From assembly GCF_900182645.1 (NCBI RefSeq), contig NZ_FXTA01000001.1, positions 186,001 through 250,000 on the forward strand: a stretch of 64,000 nucleotides of DNA. Direction: 5' to 3'. Shown in pieces: positions 44,471-52,606 of this stretch; position 1 is the first letter of the stretch, and the number at the start of each line of letters is the position of its first letter. Made by a program: the position numbers and the translations under genes. The DNA comes from Flavobacterium resistens (lineage in GTDB: Bacteria; Bacteroidota; Bacteroidia; Flavobacteriales; Flavobacteriaceae). The notes beneath the pieces were generated by a model. It made no database searches. It had not been told where the DNA came from and worked only from the letters and a program-made list of their open reading frames with translations.

Positions 44471-45475
44471 TTAATTAAATATTTTGTACAGCATTTCTTT
44501 TAGCAAATCAGATTGTGGAAGCGCATTTGCTCCAACACCTTTGCTCTTTACGTCAATATCACGCAATGCTCCAACTATCTGACTCACTTTTCGCATTGGG
44601 TAATTCTTTACAGCCAGATCATATTCTTTTAGAAAATAAGGATTTACCCCAATTGCAGCTGCAACATTTTTTGGGTTTTTATCCTTAAGTCCATGGTATT
44701 TTAAGAGTTGTACAAAAAATCCAAATACCAATCCTGTTGTCATTACTAATGGATATTCTTTTGGGTTGTGAGCAAAGTTTTCTGCGATTTTATACGCTTT
44801 CAACTGATTACGTTCTCCAATTGCTTTTCGCAATTCAAAAACATTGTAATCTTTACTGAAACCAATATTTTCCTCAATATGCTCAGCCGTAATCATTGTA
44901 CCTTGTGGCAAAATAATCTGCAGTTTTTCAAGCTCATTATTGATTTTGCTTAAATCTGTTCCGAGAAACTCAACCAACATTGCATTTGCTTTTGGATCAA
45001 TTGTATATTTCTTTCCCGCCAAAACACGTTTTATCCAATCACCAACCTGATTTTCGTAAAGTTTTTTACTTTCGTAAACCAAACCATTTTGTGCCAATAC
45101 TTTAGTAACTTTTTTACGTTTGTCCAGCGTTTTGTATTTGTAGCAAAAAACCAAAACCGTAGTTTCCATTGGATTATTGGCATAGGCTTCTAATTTATCA
45201 ATATTTCTAGACAAATCCTGGGCCTCTTTTACTATAACAACCTGACGATCAGCCATCATAGGATAGCGCTTGGCCGTTGAAACAATATCTTCTACAGAAA
45301 CATCTCTTCCATACAAAACAGTCTGGTTGAAACCTTTCTCTTCTTCTGCAAGCACATTTTCCTCAATATATTCAGATAATTTATCTATATAATAAGGTTC
45401 TTCCCCCATTAAAAAATAAATTGGTTTTATATTTCCGGCCTTGATATCATTGACAATTTTTACAACTTCGTCCAT
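44471..45475 (-). CDS. holA: DNA polymerase III subunit delta
   Basis: This clamp-loader subunit opens the beta clamp. The 334-residue product has the AAA+-like N-domain (PIYFLMGEEPYYIDKLSEYIEE), then the helical lid region (YNVFELRKAIGERNQLKAYKIAENF) and collar domain (about 215-330). The low-homology HolA pattern is clear from these blocks. It is divergent from the HsdR-N gene, with a repeat element between them. Confidence 0.92.
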   Translation of the reverse strand: MDEVVKIVNDIKAGNIKPIYFLMGEEPYYIDKLSEYIEENVLAEEEKGFNQTVLYGRDVSVEDIVSTAKRYPMMADRQVVIVKEAQDLSRNIDKLEAYANNPMETTVLVFCYKYKTLDKRKKVTKVLAQNGLVYESKKLYENQVGDWIKRVLAGKKYTIDPKANAMLVEFLGTDLSKINNELEKLQIILPQGTMITAEHIEENIGFSKDYNVFELRKAIGERNQLKAYKIAENFAHNPKEYPLVMTTGLVFGFFVQLLKYHGLKDKNPKNVAAAIGVNPYFLKEYDLAVKNYPMRKVSQIVGALRDIDVKSKGVGANALPQSDLLKEMLYKIFN

Positions 45476-45484
45476 TTAAAATTT

Positions 45485-45542
45485 GTTTCAAGTTTCAGGT
45501 TTCATGTTCATCGTTCAATAACTTGAAACTTTAAACCTGAAA
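45485..45542. repeat. GTTTCAAG-family intergenic element, crossed A-B-A'-B' pairing
   Basis: A = GTTTCAAG (45485-45492) pairs with A' = CTTGAAAC (45522-45529). B = TTTCAGGTTT (45493-45502) pairs with B' = AAACCTGAAA (45533-45542). The segments alternate, so the two helices cross. Words are shared with the element at 49900-49967. It lies in the holA/HsdR-N divergent gap. Confidence 0.75.
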
Positions 45543-45557
45543 CCTAAAACTATTTTA

Positions 45558-45565
45558 TATTTTTG
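45558..45565 (+). promoter_or_regulatory. Putative -7 box for the HsdR-N gene (TATTTTTG)
   Basis: This matches TAnnTTTG and ends 4 nt before the ATG at 45570. If used, the transcript would be leaderless or nearly so. Confidence 0.45.
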
Positions 45566-45569
45566 CTTT

Positions 45570-46022
45570 ATGCAGCAATTAAATTTTCCAACTTATAGTT
45601 TTCGATTCAAAAATAGCGAAAATAAAGTGTCTATTTTTGATGAAATCAGAAAAAAATTTATCATTCTTACCCCAGAAGAATGGGTTCGCCAGCACGTTGT
45701 TCATTATCTATTACATGAAAAAAAATATCCCAAATCATTAATCAATGTTGAGAAAGTTTTAAAAGTCAACGGATTAAGAAAACGATATGATGTTGTTGTT
45801 TTTAATTCTGACGGTTCTATACATATACTAGTAGAATGTAAAGCACCCGAGGTGAAAATCTCTCAGGCAACTTTTGATCAAATTGCTCGTTATAATATGA
45901 CAATGCAGGCACGGTTTTTGAATGTCACAAACGGACTAAACCATTTTTATTGTCAAATGGATTTTGAAAACGAAAAATATCAGTTTTTGAGAAACCTGCC
46001 TGATTATAAAGAAAACCATTAA
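45570..46022 (+). CDS. Stand-alone type I restriction HsdR N-terminal-like protein
   Basis: The 150-residue product matches the N-terminal endonuclease-like domain of HsdR (DEIRKKFIILTPEEWVRQHVVHYL, then the PD-(D/E)xK-like LVECKAPEVKISQATFDQI with E and K in VECKAP). No helicase part, HsdS or HsdM is present. Such stand-alone proteins are common in Bacteroidota, and their function is unknown. A nuclease activity is possible but not shown. Confidence 0.82.
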   Translation: MQQLNFPTYSFRFKNSENKVSIFDEIRKKFIILTPEEWVRQHVVHYLLHEKKYPKSLINVEKVLKVNGLRKRYDVVVFNSDGSIHILVECKAPEVKISQATFDQIARYNMTMQARFLNVTNGLNHFYCQMDFENEKYQFLRNLPDYKENH

Positions 46023-46042
46023 AATAAATAATTTAAGAACTT

Positions 46043-47062
46043 TTGGATAAAATAGCAGTTGTCATTTTAAATTGGAACGGAGTAAGATTGTTGGAGCAAT
46101 TTTTACCATCAGTTATTCAATTTTCGGAAGGCGCGACAATATATGTTGCCGACAATGATTCTACAGATAATTCCGTTGAATTTGTTCAACAAAATTTCCC
46201 TACAATTAAAATTGTAAAAAATACAGGCAATTATGGATTTGCAAAAGGCTATAATGATGCTTTAAAACATATTGACGCTGAAATTTATGCCTTAGTAAAT
46301 TCGGATATTGAAGTGACCGAAAATTGGTTAAAGCCAATACTTGAAACTTTTGAGTCTGAAAAACAAACTGCCATCATTCAGCCAAAAATTCTTGATTTTA
46401 AAAACAAAGAATATTTTGAATATGCAGGCGGTGCTGGTGGATTCATCGATAAATATGGTTTCCCCTTTTGTCGCGGACGTATTTTTGATACTGTTGAAAA
46501 AGACAATGGGCAATACAACGACAATTGTGAATTATTTTGGGCGTCAGGCGCTTGTTTCTTTATCCGAAAAGAGGTTTATGATGAGTTGGGAGGTTTTGAT
46601 GAAAGCTTCTTTGCACATCAGGAGGAAATTGATTTATGCTGGCGCGCCGCAAATGAAGGGCAAATCATAAAATATAATTCGCAATCTGTTGTTTACCATG
46701 TTGGAGGGGCAACTTTACAACAAGGAAATCCACGAAAAACATTTTTGAATTTCAGAAATTCATTACTAATGCTTGTGAAAAATTTACCTAAGAAAGGTTT
46801 ATTCTTTGTGATTTTCTTCAGAATGGTTTTAGATGGCATAGCAGGTATCCGTTTTCTTACACAAGGGAAATTCACCCATACTTTTGCTATTTTGAAAGCA
46901 CATTTCTCCTTTTATTGCCTATCTTTAAAATATCTAAAAAAGCGAAAAGATTTTCAAATACAGCAATACTATACCGTAAAAAGTATCGTTTACCTCTATT
47001 ACATAAAGAAATTACTGGTTTTTAAAGAAATCTTTAACAGTAATCAAAATATTAAAAACTAA
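46043..47062 (+). CDS. Glycosyltransferase family 2
   Basis: The 339-residue product opens DKIAVVILNWNG and has the GT-A fold with the nucleotide-sugar motifs YVADNDSTDNS and NSDIEVTENW, plus SGACFFIRKEVYDELGGFDE and HQEEIDLCWRA. The C-terminal part has two hydrophobic segments, suggesting membrane association. The only possible start near the motifs is TTG (46043-46045), because an in-frame stop lies two codons before it and no ATG precedes the first motif. It may build a surface polysaccharide, but the acceptor is unknown. Confidence 0.9.
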   Translation: MDKIAVVILNWNGVRLLEQFLPSVIQFSEGATIYVADNDSTDNSVEFVQQNFPTIKIVKNTGNYGFAKGYNDALKHIDAEIYALVNSDIEVTENWLKPILETFESEKQTAIIQPKILDFKNKEYFEYAGGAGGFIDKYGFPFCRGRIFDTVEKDNGQYNDNCELFWASGACFFIRKEVYDELGGFDESFFAHQEEIDLCWRAANEGQIIKYNSQSVVYHVGGATLQQGNPRKTFLNFRNSLLMLVKNLPKKGLFFVIFFRMVLDGIAGIRFLTQGKFTHTFAILKAHFSFYCLSLKYLKKRKDFQIQQYYTVKSIVYLYYIKKLLVFKEIFNSNQNIKN

Positions 47063-47096
47063 ATTTGTAATCAACGTTTAATTAAATATAATACCT

Positions 47097-47930
47097 ATGA
47101 GAAAAATAGTTATCGCACTATCAGTATTAATGGCCTTAACTTCGTGTGTATCGAAAAAGCAATATGCTGCACTTGAAGCTAAGAACAAAGAGACCCAAGA
47201 TTTATTAAACTCTTGCACTGTTAAATTAAATTCTTGTTTAGAAGAAAAAGCTGGTTTAGCTGCTACAGTTGAAGGCTTAAAATCACATAACCAAGACTTA
47301 ATCAACAGTTCAAAAGATTTAACGGTTTTAACTACTAAAGGAGCTGAAAACCTTGAAAAATCTCTAGAAAGCTTAAAAGAGAAAGATTTGAAAATCTCAA
47401 GACTTCAAGATGCTCTTACAAAAAAAGACAGTGTAACTTTAGCATTAGTTACAAGTTTAAAAGGAGCTGTTGGAATCAACGATCCAGATATCGAAATCAA
47501 TGTTGAAAAAGGAGTTGTATTTATTTCTATCGCTGATAAATTATTATTCAAAAGCGGAAGTTATGACGTAAGCGACAAAGCAAAATCTGTTTTAGCGAAA
47601 GTTGCAAAAGTTGTAAACGACAAGCCTGATTTTGAATGTATGGTTGAAGGACACACAGATGACGTTCCTTACAAAAGCAACGGAGTTTTGTTAGACAACT
47701 GGGATTTAAGTGTTAAACGTTCTACTTCTATCGTTCGTGTATTAACAAATGATCTTGGTGTTAACCCTGCAAAATTAATTGCTGCTGGTAGAAGTTCATA
47801 TGTACCATTAGTTGCAAATGATACTCCAGACAACAAAGCTCGTAACAGAAGAACTCGTATTGTGGTTATGCCAAAAATCGATCAATTCTATGATATGATT
47901 GAAAAAGAAATGAAAAAACAAGCGAAATAA
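47097..47930 (+). CDS. OmpA-family peptidoglycan-associated lipoprotein
   Basis: The 277-residue product has a lipoprotein signal with C17 in LMALTSC, a coiled coil (about 25-115, with heptad-like NKETQDLLNSC and EEKAGLAATVEGLK) and a C-terminal OmpA domain (about 140-265) with VEGHTDDVPYKSNG and RNRRTRIVVMPK, which binds peptidoglycan. It probably links the outer membrane to the cell wall. It has its own terminator at 47960-47985. Confidence 0.92.
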   Translation: MRKIVIALSVLMALTSCVSKKQYAALEAKNKETQDLLNSCTVKLNSCLEEKAGLAATVEGLKSHNQDLINSSKDLTVLTTKGAENLEKSLESLKEKDLKISRLQDALTKKDSVTLALVTSLKGAVGINDPDIEINVEKGVVFISIADKLLFKSGSYDVSDKAKSVLAKVAKVVNDKPDFECMVEGHTDDVPYKSNGVLLDNWDLSVKRSTSIVRVLTNDLGVNPAKLIAAGRSSYVPLVANDTPDNKARNRRTRIVVMPKIDQFYDMIEKEMKKQAK

Positions 47931-47959
47931 TCCTTGTTTTACATATCATAAAAAACAGA

Positions 47960-47985
47960 AAAAGCAGGTCTTACGACCTGCTTTT
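47960..47985 (+). terminator. Terminator after the OmpA lipoprotein gene
   Basis: An 11-bp perfect stem (AAAAGCAGGTC with GACCTGCTTTT) has a 4-nt loop, 29 nt after the stop. The rest of the 225-nt gap to 48156 shows no gene. Confidence 0.88.
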
Positions 47986-48155
47986 ATGTATCCTTAATTT
48001 TTTTAATAACCAATTAAATATAAATCAAGAATAGCATTATTTTTAATCAACTAACTAAATTTTAACTATACTAAAGTTAGTGATTATTTTTTAACATTTA
48101 CACAATTTCAGTTTTTTTTTACAAATATACCATATTACTATTCCCAGTATTATAA

Positions 48156-49193
48156 TTATTCTACCCCATAATTTAAAGGCAACATATCTCCAACTCTTTT
48201 TTCCGATATTTTCCCTGAAAAAAGTATGTCTTCAATATTTGAATTATTTCCATACTTGTAAATATAAAAACTATTTGTTTCAAAAGTTATTTTGGATACT
48301 TCCTTTTTGTCGAAGATAAGATTATAAACAGCTACAATTTTTTTTGAGTTTAGATTTATATTTTCACTTTTATCCTGATCAATTAATTCTACTTTTGCAA
48401 AATCGCCTTCTTTAGTTATTTTGAAGCATTTAGTTGGATCCTGATTATACTTACCTTTAAACAGTAAAAATTTCTTGGCCTCCCAATCCGTATTTGCTAA
48501 ATTTCTGAAAAACTGAATTTGAGATCCCTGAAATGTTTTTTCTCGTTTTTTTAAAACTTTAGCGCTATTATCAATTTCTTCAAATCGGCTCACGCCTCCA
48601 TAAAAATTCTTATAAGCATCTAATGAATTAATACTAAACCTATTAAAATAAACTTCAAAAATTACCAATTCAAAATCAATTTTATATCCTAAGGCCGGAT
48701 TTATAATTACTAAAGGTTTATCTGAAGAGGCTGTAAAAAGTAAATTCTTTTTATCATAATTAAATTTAATATCATCTTCATTTTTAATAATAGCTGATTT
48801 CGCATTACTAGTTTTTCCTAAAAAGTATTCTCTAAACAACTTTAATTTCTGAGCTCTTGTAAACTCATTATTATTATTAACAACAACTTCTTTAAGCTCA
48901 TTTTCCGAAATCTTCATCGCAATATTTAAGGGCTTCGAAACATCTAATCCCGACAAATACTCCGTTTGATATCCCATTGAACTAATCACTAAAATACTAT
49001 TAGCATTAGGTTCATACTTGATAGAAAATTTTCCATCAGCATCTGAAACTGTTGAAATTGTTGTACCATCATAATAAACATTTACTCCTTCTAACGGAAT
49101 ATTACCTTTACCTGTAATTTTACCATTAAGATTATGTTGCGAAAATATAGTGAGCGCAGAAAATAAAAATAAAAGAGTAAATAGTTTTTTCAT
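48156..49193 (-). CDS. Carboxypeptidase-regulatory-like domain protein
   Basis: The 345-residue product, counted from ATG 49191-49193 (MKKLFTLLFLFSALTIFSQ), has a signal peptide and a CarboxypepD-regulatory-like beta domain (about 20-98, NLNGKITGKGNIPLEGVNVYYD), as in the N-terminus of many TonB-linked receptors. The rest (about 110-345) is uncharacterised beta-rich sequence. It probably acts in the periplasm or outer membrane. No T9SS tail or barrel is visible. Confidence 0.8.
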   Translation of the reverse strand: MKKLFTLLFLFSALTIFSQHNLNGKITGKGNIPLEGVNVYYDGTTISTVSDADGKFSIKYEPNANSILVISSMGYQTEYLSGLDVSKPLNIAMKISENELKEVVVNNNNEFTRAQKLKLFREYFLGKTSNAKSAIIKNEDDIKFNYDKKNLLFTASSDKPLVIINPALGYKIDFELVIFEVYFNRFSINSLDAYKNFYGGVSRFEEIDNSAKVLKKREKTFQGSQIQFFRNLANTDWEAKKFLLFKGKYNQDPTKCFKITKEGDFAKVELIDQDKSENINLNSKKIVAVYNLIFDKKEVSKITFETNSFYIYKYGNNSNIEDILFSGKISEKRVGDMLPLNYGVE

Positions 49194-49200
49194 TAAAGCC

Positions 49201-49242
49201 AAAAGGTTTGATTAATTAGTAGCTAATTAACCAAACCTTTTT
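49201..49242 (-). terminator. Terminator after the Sua5/YciO-type gene
   Basis: A stem of about 19 bp (AAAAGGTTTG, mismatch, TTAATTAG; then CTAATTAA, mismatch, CAAACCTTTT) has a 3-nt loop, 30 nt after the stop. Confidence 0.85.
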
Positions 49243-49271
49243 GTATTATCCTAAACAATCTATATTTTTTC

Positions 49272-49892
49272 TTACAAAATATCAATATCGCCTTTTCCTT
49301 CTCTCACGATAACTGGTTCATATTCTGAAAGGTCAATTATTGTCGAACCAACGTTGTCACCATAACCACCATCAATTACCAAATCTACTAGATTTTGCCA
49401 TTTTTCAAAAATCAATTCGGGATCTGTAGTATATTCAATTACATCATCTTCATCACGAATAGAAGTTGAAACTACCGGATTTCCCAATTGACGAACAATT
49501 TCTAAAATAATATTATTATCAGGAACACGAATACCAACTGTTGTTTTCTTTTTAAACTCTTTTGGCAAATTATTGTTTCCTGGCAAAATAAAGGTGTAAG
49601 GACCTGGTAAAGCTCTTTTCAGAATTTTGAAAGTCGATGTATCAATCTGACGTACATAATCTGATAAATTGCTCAAATCATGACAAATAAAAGAAAAATT
49701 TGCTTTCTCTAATTTAACACCTTTTATTTTTGCAATTTTTTCTAAAGCCCTAGAATTGGTAATATCACAACCTAAACCATAAACAGTATCTGTCGGATAA
49801 ATTACCAATCCACCATTCTGAAGCACTTTTACAACTTTTGCAATTGCAGCTTCACTAGGTTTATCTGGATATATTTTTATGAATTCAGCCAT
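49272..49892 (-). CDS. L-threonylcarbamoyladenylate synthase (Sua5/YciO/YrdC)
   Basis: The 206-residue product forms threonylcarbamoyl-AMP for tRNA t6A synthesis. It has the YrdC fold with GGLVIYPTDTVYGLGCDI and PGPYTFILPG, typical for the nucleotide and threonine pocket. It lacks the extra C-terminal Sua5 domain. The partner TsaE is at 36104-36511. Confidence 0.9.
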   Translation of the reverse strand: MAEFIKIYPDKPSEAAIAKVVKVLQNGGLVIYPTDTVYGLGCDITNSRALEKIAKIKGVKLEKANFSFICHDLSNLSDYVRQIDTSTFKILKRALPGPYTFILPGNNNLPKEFKKKTTVGIRVPDNNIILEIVRQLGNPVVSTSIRDEDDVIEYTTDPELIFEKWQNLVDLVIDGGYGDNVGSTIIDLSEYEPVIVREGKGDIDIL

Positions 49893-49899
49893 CGTTTTT

Positions 49900-49967
49900 G
49901 TTTCAAGTTTATATTTGTTTCAGGTTTCAGGTTTACGCTTCAACACTTGAAACCTTAAACTTGAAAC
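49900..49967. repeat. GTTTCAAG-family intergenic element, second copy
   Basis: GTTTCAAGTTTA (49900-49911) pairs perfectly with TAAACTTGAAAC (49956-49967). Between them lie two CAGGTTT words (49921-49935) and CTTGAAACC. It shares GTTTCAAGTTT, CAGGTTTCA and CTTGAAAC with 45485-45542. It lies between the Sua5-type gene and the helicase gene. Confidence 0.75.
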
Positions 49968-49972
49968 ATTTC

Positions 49973-52309
49973 TTATCCTACAACATCTAATTTAGCAAAT
50001 CTTAACAACAATTTCTTAATTCCGCCTACCTCAAATTTAATTTCGGCTTTTTTATCAGCGCCAACACCTTCTAGATTAATCACTTCGCCTTTTCCAAAAC
50101 GTTCATGCATCACCACATTTCCAACCGTTAATTTGCTATCAAATAAATTTGGAGCGCCAGCATTTGGGTTTGTTCCTCCAACTGGTTTTAGTTTTCTGAT
50201 ATTCAAATCCGGTTTCGGATTATTATCTGTAACATGTTTTGGAGGCGTTCCTCCTACTGGTTTTGCCAATCTTAATTTAGATTTATCTACATCTCCGAAA
50301 ATATCGCCGTCAATTGGTGATTTATAACGATAATTACTTTCAGACGGAGTTAAATATTCTAGATATTGGCCATCAATTTCTTCAATAAAACGAGATGGTT
50401 CACTATCTGTCAATTTTCCCCAACGGTAACGCGACTGTGCATAAGTTAAATACGCCTGATGTTCAGCACGAGTTAAAGCTACGTAAAATAATCGACGTTC
50501 TTCTTCTAATTCGCTTCTGGTACTCATACTCATAGCACTCGGAAACAAATCTTCTTCCATTCCCACAACAAAAACATGCGGAAATTCAAGTCCTTTTGCT
50601 AAGTGAATCGTCATCAAAGCTACACGATCTTCATCATTTGTATCTTTATCCAAATCAGTTGCCAAAGCTACATCTTCCATAAATTCAGAAAGCGCACCTC
50701 TTGCTCCATCAATCTCTCTTTGACCTTCGGTAAAATCTTTAATACCGTTTAAAAGTTCTTCGATATTCTGAATTTTTGCCATTCCTTCCGGAGTAGCATC
50801 TTTTTTCAATTCCTGAACCAAACCTGTTTTCTTTGCAACGTGGTCTGTAATATAAAAAGCATCCTGATTTTGATCGATAACCTGAAAACTCTGAATCATC
50901 GTAACAAAATCTTTTAGTTTATTTTTAGTTCCGGCATTCAATTTCAAGTCGATTTTATCGATATTCACCATTACTTCCCAAATCGAACGTTTATAATGAT
51001 TTGCCGCAATAGTCAGTTTTTCTACAGTTGTATCTCCAATTCCTCTTGCAGGGTAATTGATTACACGAATCAAAGCTTCTTCATCTTTTGGATTCAAAAC
51101 CAAACGCAAATAACACAAAACATCTTTAATTTCTTTACGTTGGTAAAAAGACAAACCTCCATAAATTCTATACGGAATATCGCGTTTTCTTAAAGCGTCT
51201 TCCATCGCACGCGATTGTGCATTTGTACGATACAAAATAGCAAAAGCGCCATTATGCAATTGATTCTGCATTTTCTGCTCAAAAATTGTACTCGCAACAA
51301 AACGACCTTCTTCTGCATCTGTCAAACTTCTGTGGACTTTAATTCTTGGCCCAAATTCATTTGCAGTCCAAACCACTTTATCCAGTTTGGTCTTATTATG
51401 CTCCATTACCGTATTTGCCGCCTCTACAATATTTCGTGTCGAACGATAATTCTGTTCCAAACGAAACATTACTACACCTTCATAATCTTTTTGAAAATTC
51501 AAAATATTATTAATGTTCGCTCCACGGAACGCATAAATACTCTGCGCATCATCACCAACCACACAAATATTCTGAAATCTGTCTGATAAAGCTCTAACAA
51601 TCAAATATTGTGAGTGATTTGTATCTTGGTACTCATCAACCAAAATATAACGAAAACGATCTTGATATTTAGCTAAAACTTCAGGAAAACGAGTCAGCAA
51701 TTCATTTGTTTTCAATAACAAATCATCAAAATCCATTGCGCCAGCTTTAAAACAGCGCTCTACATATTGCTGATAAATTTCGCCTAATCTTGGTCTTTTT
51801 GCCATAGCATCGGCTTCAACCAATTCTGGATTATTAAAATAGGCTTTAACCGTAATCAAACTGTTTTTATAGCTTGATATACGACCTAAAATCTGTTTTG
51901 GCTTATAGATATCACGATCCAACTGCATTTCTTTAATAATCGAAGAAATCAATCTCGCCGAATCCTGAGAATCATAAATAGTAAAATTGGAAGGATATCC
52001 TAAATGATCTGATTCTGCACGAAGAATACGAGCGAAAATCGAGTGAAAAGTTCCCATCCAAAGATTTTTAGCTTCAGATGCTCCCACAATATCCGAAATC
52101 CTGTGCTTCATTTCACGCGCTGCTTTATTGGTAAAAGTCAGCGACAAAATATTGAAGGCATCAACACCTTGAGCCATCAAATAAGCAATTCTAATTGTTA
52201 AAACACGGGTTTTTCCCGAACCTGCACCAGCAATAATAATCATTGGCCCGTCTTTCTTTAAAACAGGCGCTCTCTGCGCTTCGTTGAGCTGGTCAATATA
52301 TTTCTGCAT
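49973..52309 (-). CDS. UvrD/PcrA-type superfamily 1 DNA helicase
   Basis: The 778-residue product, counted from ATG 52307-52309 (MQKYIDQLNEAQRAPVL), has Walker A GAGSGKTRVL (about 30-40), DEYQDTNHSQYLIVRAL, QNYRSTRNIVEAANTV, and MTIHLAKGLEFPHVFV with the C-terminal KGEVINLEGVGADKKAEIKF-type Tudor-like tail. It unwinds DNA in repair and replication-restart. A TATTTTTG box at 52331-52338 and an AAAGGAG just upstream of the start support this start over 52333. Confidence 0.93.
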   Translation of the reverse strand: MQKYIDQLNEAQRAPVLKKDGPMIIIAGAGSGKTRVLTIRIAYLMAQGVDAFNILSLTFTNKAAREMKHRISDIVGASEAKNLWMGTFHSIFARILRAESDHLGYPSNFTIYDSQDSARLISSIIKEMQLDRDIYKPKQILGRISSYKNSLITVKAYFNNPELVEADAMAKRPRLGEIYQQYVERCFKAGAMDFDDLLLKTNELLTRFPEVLAKYQDRFRYILVDEYQDTNHSQYLIVRALSDRFQNICVVGDDAQSIYAFRGANINNILNFQKDYEGVVMFRLEQNYRSTRNIVEAANTVMEHNKTKLDKVVWTANEFGPRIKVHRSLTDAEEGRFVASTIFEQKMQNQLHNGAFAILYRTNAQSRAMEDALRKRDIPYRIYGGLSFYQRKEIKDVLCYLRLVLNPKDEEALIRVINYPARGIGDTTVEKLTIAANHYKRSIWEVMVNIDKIDLKLNAGTKNKLKDFVTMIQSFQVIDQNQDAFYITDHVAKKTGLVQELKKDATPEGMAKIQNIEELLNGIKDFTEGQREIDGARGALSEFMEDVALATDLDKDTNDEDRVALMTIHLAKGLEFPHVFVVGMEEDLFPSAMSMSTRSELEEERRLFYVALTRAEHQAYLTYAQSRYRWGKLTDSEPSRFIEEIDGQYLEYLTPSESNYRYKSPIDGDIFGDVDKSKLRLAKPVGGTPPKHVTDNNPKPDLNIRKLKPVGGTNPNAGAPNLFDSKLTVGNVVMHERFGKGEVINLEGVGADKKAEIKFEVGGIKKLLLRFAKLDVVG

Positions 52310-52354: not shown

Positions 52355-52606
52355 TAAGCTACTAAGCTTCTAAGACACTAAGTTTTTTTTCTTTTTTGAA
52401 GCCGAAGAAAAGGCATTTTATTGAACATGGTTTCCCGCTTTCGGCTTTATCTCTTCGCTCCGCAACGAGGATATCGCCTCTATCGGGGCTAGAAAACAAA
52501 CATCATTTTTGAGATACTAAGCTACCTAGTTCCTAAGACTTTATTTTTTTCTTTCGACAAAGAGAGAAAGCTTAGAACCTTAGCATCTTAGTAACTTAGA
52601 AGCTTA
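52355..52606. repeat. Composite intergenic element with CTAAG inverted ends and GC-richer core
   Basis: The left end, made of CTAAG words at 52355-52382, is an inverted repeat of the right end at 52571-52606, which overlaps the stop of the TSUP gene. A direct-orientation copy of the words lies at 52511-52539. The core (about 52431-52491) is GC-richer than its surroundings, with TTTCCCGCTTTCGGCTTTAT and CTCTATCGGGGCTA. I see no reading frame in it. I recall similar TATCGGGG...GCGGGA units from other Flavobacterium genomes, but this is memory and unverified. Confidence 0.7.

Follow-up and report, generated by a model that had tools for sequence, protein, structure and literature searches.

Intergenic arrays of tandem heptamers are known from several bacterial groups. 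PMC4692102 describes two such heptamers, GGGAATC from Xanthomonas and GGGGA(C/T)T from Nostoc, which adjoin genes of many functions and whose array lengths vary between close relatives. Near an open reading frame (ORF), these heptamers stand on the coding strand after stop codons and on the non-coding strand before start codons, and few lie in divergent gaps. They form G-quadruplexes in vitro, and that study found no regulatory role for them; for the excess of heptamers and the idea of slippage it cites an earlier survey (2007), and it also cites Calothrix repeats. TAACTGA heptamers are described in Beggiatoaceae, Cyanobacteria and five Bacteroidetes in PMC4679880. Here we analyse two intergenic elements, named element 1 and element 2, of a 64,000-nucleotide (nt) stretch of the Flavobacterium resistens genome (the window), and the dispersed arrays of the heptamer GTTTCAR to which they belong.

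Both gaps contain GTTTCAAGTTT (window positions 45485 and 49900), CAGGTTTCA (45496 and 49921) and CTTGAAAC (45522 in the first gap, 49946 and 49960 in the second), and a position check found these shared words where the first-pass annotation, made from the letters alone, had placed them. The extent it gave for element 2 (49900-49967) is also right, while element 1 runs to about 45550 and not to 45542. The two gaps (45476-45569 and 49893-49972) are for the most part taken up by the elements, and the flanking genes are indeed unrelated: HolA and an HSDR_N_2 protein for the first, Sua5 and a UvrD-type helicase for the second, the last being what we take gene 49973..52309 to encode, judging from its sequence. 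In both elements, copies of a single degenerate heptamer are arrayed head-to-head, GTTTCAR ... YTGAAAC. Element 1 can be written as GTTTCAA GTTTCAG GTTTCAT ... CTTGAAAC TTTAAAC CTGAAAC CTAAAAC, and the plan of element 2 is identical. In the window, GTTTCAAG occurs 13 times against 3.65 expected, a count that none of 100 shuffles reached.

The two elements are part of a dispersed family, as the first-pass annotation had suggested, with many copies genome-wide and in many genomes of the genus rather than the few that would have spoken against it. In the genome of F. resistens itself (G000), GTTTCANGTTTCANGTTT is found at 209 places (111 forward, 98 reverse) and its reversed control at none. Within 1.21 Mb of this genome, exact tandem runs number 34 at period 7, all 34 of them between genes; there are 1, 5, 7, 6, 0 and 2 runs at periods 5, 6, 8, 9, 10 and 11. 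GTTTCAA or GTTTCAG is the unit in 22 of the 34 period-7 runs. GTTTC forms 29 arrays at period 7 in this genome, with at most one for each of 19 other letter orders. Of the intergenic 6-mers that recur at lag 7, GTTTCA is the most frequent, its 94 pairs being spread over 34 gaps. Smaller samples of gaps from three other genomes also have their highest counts at period 7 (35, 25 and 8, versus at most 5 at periods 6, 8, 9 and 10).

Leaving a gene end in the 5′ to 3′ direction, GTTTCA is nearly always read, at starts and stops alike. Genes were called with a home-made ORF scorer, and distances to starts are approximate. Among 45 arrays with two adjacent exact units in F. resistens, 44 are intergenic; the gene end pointed to is a start in 25 and a stop in 20, and since all gap ends comprise 818 starts and 770 stops, arrays use both alike. 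The median distance to that end is 24 bases for starts and 7 for stops, versus 121 and 73.5 on the opposite side, and the outward gene end is the closer one in 37 of the 44 intergenic arrays. In 26 gaps from four genomes the order of runs is RL in 21, RLRL in two, and RLL, LLR and LRR in one each; GTTTCA comes first and TGAAAC last in 24 of them. All 11 gaps with a heptamer array on each side are head-to-head. Counted by unit, 108 agree with this polarity and 2 disagree, with a split point picked to maximise agreement; the run-order and two-sided-gap counts are free of any such choice. Counted by gap type, arrays are present in 4 gaps out of 192 that are divergent, 25 out of 738 that are tandem and 10 out of 144 that are convergent; these numbers are small.

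Across the genus, GTTTCANGTTTCANGTTT is found in 85 of 150 genomes, that of F. resistens included, and is absent from 65. High counts are patchy, and most of the genomes that have them exceed 4.4 Mb, though G016, G032 and G092, for instance, do not follow this trend; the reversed control is not always zero (10 in G016, for example). Only 4 of 59 genomes from other genera of Flavobacteriaceae, one genome each, have any place, the highest count being 21. When named genomes were scanned with a 25-base form of the pattern, at least 120 stretches at no fewer than 80 loci matched, many of the records being metagenome-assembled genomes. Beyond Flavobacterium, the matches listed include Desulfonema magnum and Catenovulum sediminis (complete records), together with Leptolyngbya, Acidobacteria, Verrucomicrobia, Kiritimatiellae, Prevotellaceae and others. 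Twenty of these genomes, picked because they had a match, hold 1,891 places of the 18-base pattern versus 17 for the control, with 785 in Desulfonema and 322 in an acidobacterium. One and the same unit is thus present in Acidobacteria, Desulfobacterales and other groups. At the 42 loci among the matches listed that bear no Flavobacterium or Flavobacteriaceae label, the outward gene end is again closer for 30 intergenic arrays out of 40 (p 0.002), and of the pairs of neighbouring arrays four are head-to-head and one is tail-to-tail; at the listed loci of other genomes the outward end is also closer in 40 of 49. The set outside Flavobacterium includes Gelidibacter and Lutibacter, which we take to be members of the Flavobacteriaceae.

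A family-wide bias towards period 7 was considered and rejected: whole 20-kb stretches from 15 other genera gave only two period-7 runs, both in one genus, along with two runs at period 9 and one at period 6. Those two period-7 runs (300 kb in all) are adjoining GGGTTAA and GTGTTAT arrays in genome G225 (L363, offsets about 665 and 686), which also carries 21 GTTTCA places.

When the two gene pairs are followed in relatives (30 species each), arrays differ by whole units, some arms are lost and centres are replaced. The HolA/HSDR_N_2 gap holds GTTTCA-type arrays in 24 species, TTCAGTG-type arrays in five and AGATTTN units in one. Among 14 further species inspected by eye, it holds GTTTAAA in G007 and G010, GTGTTCA in G177 and TCTATTN in G055 and G138, and GTTTCA-type arrays in others (e.g. 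G004, G156, G174). At this locus the right arm is much lost in several species, such as G006, G008, G042, G062 and G087. In 24 of the 30 species, GTTTCA or TGAAAC is found no more than about 60 nt from an end of the UvrD/Sua5 gap. The middle of this gap is occupied by a small loop, a TCGAAG stretch (7/30), a GCAAAG module (2/30) or a gene. Gap edges thus tend to persist, and centres, and over longer times units, are exchanged.

A sister family with the same organisation is built on the octamer CTAAGNNN. At period 8 it forms 37 arrays in positions 1-1210000 of contig C1 of F. resistens, none of them in genes, and 59 other letter orders form none. Of 22 CTAAG arrays, 17 are closer to the left gene, and of 15 CTTAG arrays, 14 are closer to the right one; all 14 two-sided gaps have the same order, CTAAG left and CTTAG right. 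The octamer is carried by 12 of 41 genomes of the genus, that of F. resistens included (155 places versus 1 for the control); the reversed control is not always zero, with 20 versus 95 places in G008 and a control of 7 in G006. Its arms leave three unmatched positions per unit, with a conserved core and a variable spacer. For arrays at most 45 nt from a stop codon, the stop TAA is in register with the unit in 9 of 22 (p 0.0008 versus 1/8, in a test devised after the pattern had been noticed).

Other short elements were noticed, some of them in the same gaps. A third family, of period 9 (GCAAAG/CTTTGC), has 15 arrays in C1:1-1210000, two of them in genes, and is without clear edge polarity; in G102 and G153 the Sua5 gap is filled with GCAAAG period-9 sequence. 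An 18-bp palindrome, TCCCGATAGCTATCGGGA, with its variants, occurs at 14 places in C1 (e.g. 566779, 583305, 602937, 1074059 and 1080864), and one palindrome of this type lies at window position 1208. These palindromes often stand inside arrays of the octamer, of the heptamer or of GCAAAG. A 3-bp CTA or TAG repeat flanks 5 of the 14 in the manner of a target-site duplication; the octamer unit itself contains CTA. The Sua5 gap of G161 (L121) contains a GIY-YIG nuclease gene of 95 residues (PF01541, E 3.1e-17) amid TCGAAG-type sequence, and the eight PF01541 matches of F. resistens lie elsewhere than in this gap; GIY-YIG genes were considered as a hypothetical mobiliser of the arrays. Two different small genes occupy the Sua5 gap in G015, G113 and G135 on the one hand and in G082 and G107 on the other, with ORFs of 137 (G015) and 165 residues (G082/G107). 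In G008 (L110), the Sua5 edge carries some three tandem copies of a 15-bp unit, AAATAAACCTTAAAC, as if from a recent expansion (by eye).

Table 1. Arrays and flanking genes in the window, with the basis of each assignment.
Feature	Position	Strand	Basis
Element 1, heptamer array in head-to-head order, in the gap from which holA (-) and HSDR_N_2 gene (+) diverge	45485..45550	.	sequence, fold
Element 1 left arm, GTTTCAA GTTTCAG GTTTCA, outward from holA start	45485..45504	+	sequence
Element 1 right arm, CTTGAAAC TTTAAAC CTGAAAC CTAAAAC, towards HSDR_N_2 start	45522..45550	+	sequence
Element 2, head-to-head heptamer array, uvrD-type stop to Sua5 start (both genes -)	49900..49967	.	sequence, fold
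Element 2 left arm, GTTTCAAGTTTA, then GTTTCAG GTTTCAG GTTTA	49900..49935	+	sequence
Element 2 right arm, CTTGAAAC CTTAAAC TTGAAAC	49946..49967	+	sequence
holA, DNA polymerase III delta subunit, flanks element 1	44471..45475	-	Pfam PF06144
HSDR_N_2 domain protein gene, flanks element 1	45570..46022	+	Pfam PF13588
Sua5/YrdC-type protein gene, flanks element 2	49272..49892	-	Pfam PF01300
UvrD-type helicase gene, flanks element 2	49973..52309	-	named from sequence
Octamer array CTAAGNNN, left edge of gap beyond uvrD-type gene	52362..52382	+	sequence
Octamer array (CTTAG on +), right edge of that gap	52571..52599	-	sequence

On balance, elements 1 and 2 are probably dispersed, gene-edge-polarised intergenic heptamer arrays, shaped by slippage and by copying of array DNA and tolerated where they stand, with no specific host function needed. 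The arrays would lengthen and shorten in unit steps via slippage and unequal exchange, and array DNA would be copied from gap to gap and thereby spread. Non-coding DNA beside stop codons and start signals may tolerate the arrays, which would thus persist. The capacity to form hairpins would result from the head-to-head order and not be selected in itself, and the middles of gaps would take up other short palindromic inserts.

Several points weigh against this proposal. Slippage by itself does not account for the fixed polarity, or for the presence of one unit over many loci and in distant phyla, and the copying step is inferred, not directly observed. The period of seven, the single polarity and the unit common to distant phyla are left without explanation by the favoured mechanism. 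One of the 45 arrays of F. resistens lies mostly within a called gene, and at 11 of the 42 listed loci outside Flavobacterium the arrays are mainly inside ORFs called there. The right arm at the HolA locus and a promoter-like stretch are well conserved in 16 aligned species, which could mean function. Finally, seven of the nine arm tests given below lean slightly towards coupling.

The arrays could instead derive from a palindromic mobile element, comparable to a miniature inverted-repeat transposable element or a repetitive extragenic palindrome (REP), copied whole by a trans-acting enzyme, its arms drifting later and the polarity being a matter of geometry. We consider this unlikely, although it would agree with the fixed head-to-head order (24 of 26 gaps, and 11 of 11 two-sided ones). 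Among the matches listed, opposite-strand neighbours are also head-to-head in 23 of 23 pairs of the acidobacterium and in 8 of 8 of a Pyrinomonadaceae genome, many of them spaced 41-57 bases apart. Such an element predicts that the arms of one copy remain coupled. We compared the complementarity of each arm to its own partner with that to the arms of other elements, in nine tests on overlapping data. The own and other scores were 18.05 and 17.94 for the heptamer arms (p 0.43, n=19, 19 of 20 gaps kept), 18.58 and 18.24 for four genomes pooled (p 0.24, n=24 gaps kept), 17.07 and 16.55 for the HolA locus across species (p 0.096, n=15 of 22 distinct sequences), 18.18 and 18.0 for stricter arms (p 0.34, n=11), and 13.96 and 13.42 for core arms only (p 0.10, n=24). 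For the octamer they were 13.71 and 13.44 (arms, p 0.34, n=14) and 0.57 and 0.45 (shared triplets, p 0.25, n=14), and the acidobacterial pairs gave p 0.69 and 0.71 under two scorings (n=18). None of the nine tests is thus significant (p 0.096-0.71). Yet divergence of 10-20% per arm is usually detectable: a simulation on core arms recovered coupling in 40 of 40 and 31 of 40 trials for arm copies diverged by 10% and 20% each. This simulation is the valid one, a simulation of the acidobacterial pairs having kept element-specific flanks and being too lenient. The arms may still be weakly coupled. The centres of the elements are not conserved, and a search for the REP-type Y1 transposase PF01797, positive in 5 of 14 genomes as a control, gave no match in F. 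resistens; an element driven by a REP-associated tyrosine transposase (RAYT) was rejected on that ground, though a RAYT may exist elsewhere in the lineage. A self-copying palindromic unit, the other option named in the first-pass annotation, is a possible origin.

We find it quite unlikely that the arrays are cis-regulatory or protein-binding sites acting on the adjoining genes as part of a promoter, a leader or a 3′ end. Their closeness to gene ends (medians of 7 bases for stops and 24 for starts) would suit such a role, as would the conserved right arm beside HSDR_N_2 and the conservation of a core next to a variable spacer, which is clearest in the octamer. However, starts and stops are used equally, the neighbouring genes are unrelated, the unit is absent from 65 of the 150 genus genomes, and units are swapped at one and the same gene pair. 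PMC4692102 likewise saw no regulatory role for its heptamers.

Selection on an RNA structure (a hairpin, a switch or a pseudoknot), as proposed in the first-pass annotation, is very unlikely. As RNA, both elements do fold better than every one of 200 dinucleotide-preserving shuffles, whichever strand is taken (z -4.9 to -6.6); the program used predicts nested folds only, and such folds are enough to account for the pairing. The perfect 12-bp outer stem reported for element 2 is exact, and the A-B-A′-B′ alternation is present in the first gap (A 45485, B 45496, A′ 45522, B′ 45536-45545). This order is nonetheless expected, because tandem units are each complementary to units of the opposite arm; every unit pairs with all units across, nested folds suffice, and crossed pairing as a switch is rejected on these grounds. 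In an RNAalifold consensus of 16 HolA-locus sequences, none of the 21 pairs has changed on both sides, so that the suggested selection, with no double compensatory change and no significant arm coupling, was not supported; a lack of covariation is the outcome that the first-pass annotation had named as refuting it. The alignment takes 16 of 44 locus sequences; the omitted ones have inserts, have lost arms or carry other units, apart from at least three more, and this choice favours finding structure. Moreover, the right arm is largely gone in some species at this locus, and octamer arms have their three unmatched positions per unit. Rfam gave no match at gathering score in the window, and ten matches with E of at most 5 in 45000-50500 are all below gathering scores. 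Hairpin capacity looks like a by-product of head-to-head repeats and not like something evolutionarily preserved.

Transcription terminators or 3′-end stabilisers are scarcely credible, for while the arrays are commoner in convergent gaps (10/144, versus 25/738 tandem and 4/192 divergent), separate hairpin-plus-T terminators lie between both arrays at several convergent sites (by eye, e.g. C1:898786 and C1:994936), and an intrinsic terminator is ruled out for element 1 by its position in a divergent gap, between two start codons.

As a highly speculative alternative, a conserved repeat-adding process (a templated or idling polymerase) might extend the gene-side 3′ ends left by breaks or nicks in short intergenic gaps, writing the arrays outward, after which both extended ends would be joined with any sequence between them. 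If this were true, such a bacterial analogue of telomere-repeat healing would cover in a single step the outward polarity at starts and stops, the independent arms, the one-arm gaps and the exchanged centres. End-wise addition would also cover the octamers in stop-codon register and the same unit in unrelated phyla.

How, then, do these arrays compare with described repeats? No description of GTTTCAR or CTAAGNNN arrays was found in the searched literature, outside which most subscription journals lie, and literal array strings gave matches on unrelated subjects only, as judged from the starts of abstracts. Like the REP elements mobilised by RAYT enzymes, the GTTTCAR elements are short, dispersed, intergenic and palindromic; unlike them, they are made of tandem heptamers, their centre is not conserved, and the genome is without a PF01797 gene. 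Cyanobacteria have heptanucleotide repeats known as STRR, a name also used in PMC4692102. STRR repeats are, like GTTTCAR, dispersed tandem heptanucleotides, with other units and in other hosts.

The TAACTGA repeats, as PMC4679880 presents them, are also heptamers, mostly intergenic and patchy over distant phyla including Bacteroidetes. Unlike GTTTCAR, in the main genome of that study they are mostly direct repeats that share one orientation and immediately precede start codons, and Flavobacterium is not mentioned there.

The closest likeness is with the Xanthomonas and Nostoc heptamers of PMC4692102: GTTTCAR has the same period of 7, is intergenic, follows the same strand rule, is rare in divergent gaps, adjoins genes of varied function and likewise differs in array length among relatives. 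Head-to-head pairs, common for GTTTCAR, are present in Xanthomonas and few in Nostoc. Unlike these G-rich heptamers, GTTTCAR has no run of three G; G-quadruplexes therefore cannot explain the gene-end rule that they share. This rule, discussed in that source through G-quadruplexes, holds here for a heptamer free of G-runs, for an octamer and in several phyla, and its cause must therefore be independent of quadruplexes. The patchy occurrence among species, the units swappable at one gene pair and the independent arms make this cause open to comparison and experiment. The best reading is that the GTTTCAR arrays are a newly seen unit of a known, unexplained class of intergenic heptamer arrays.

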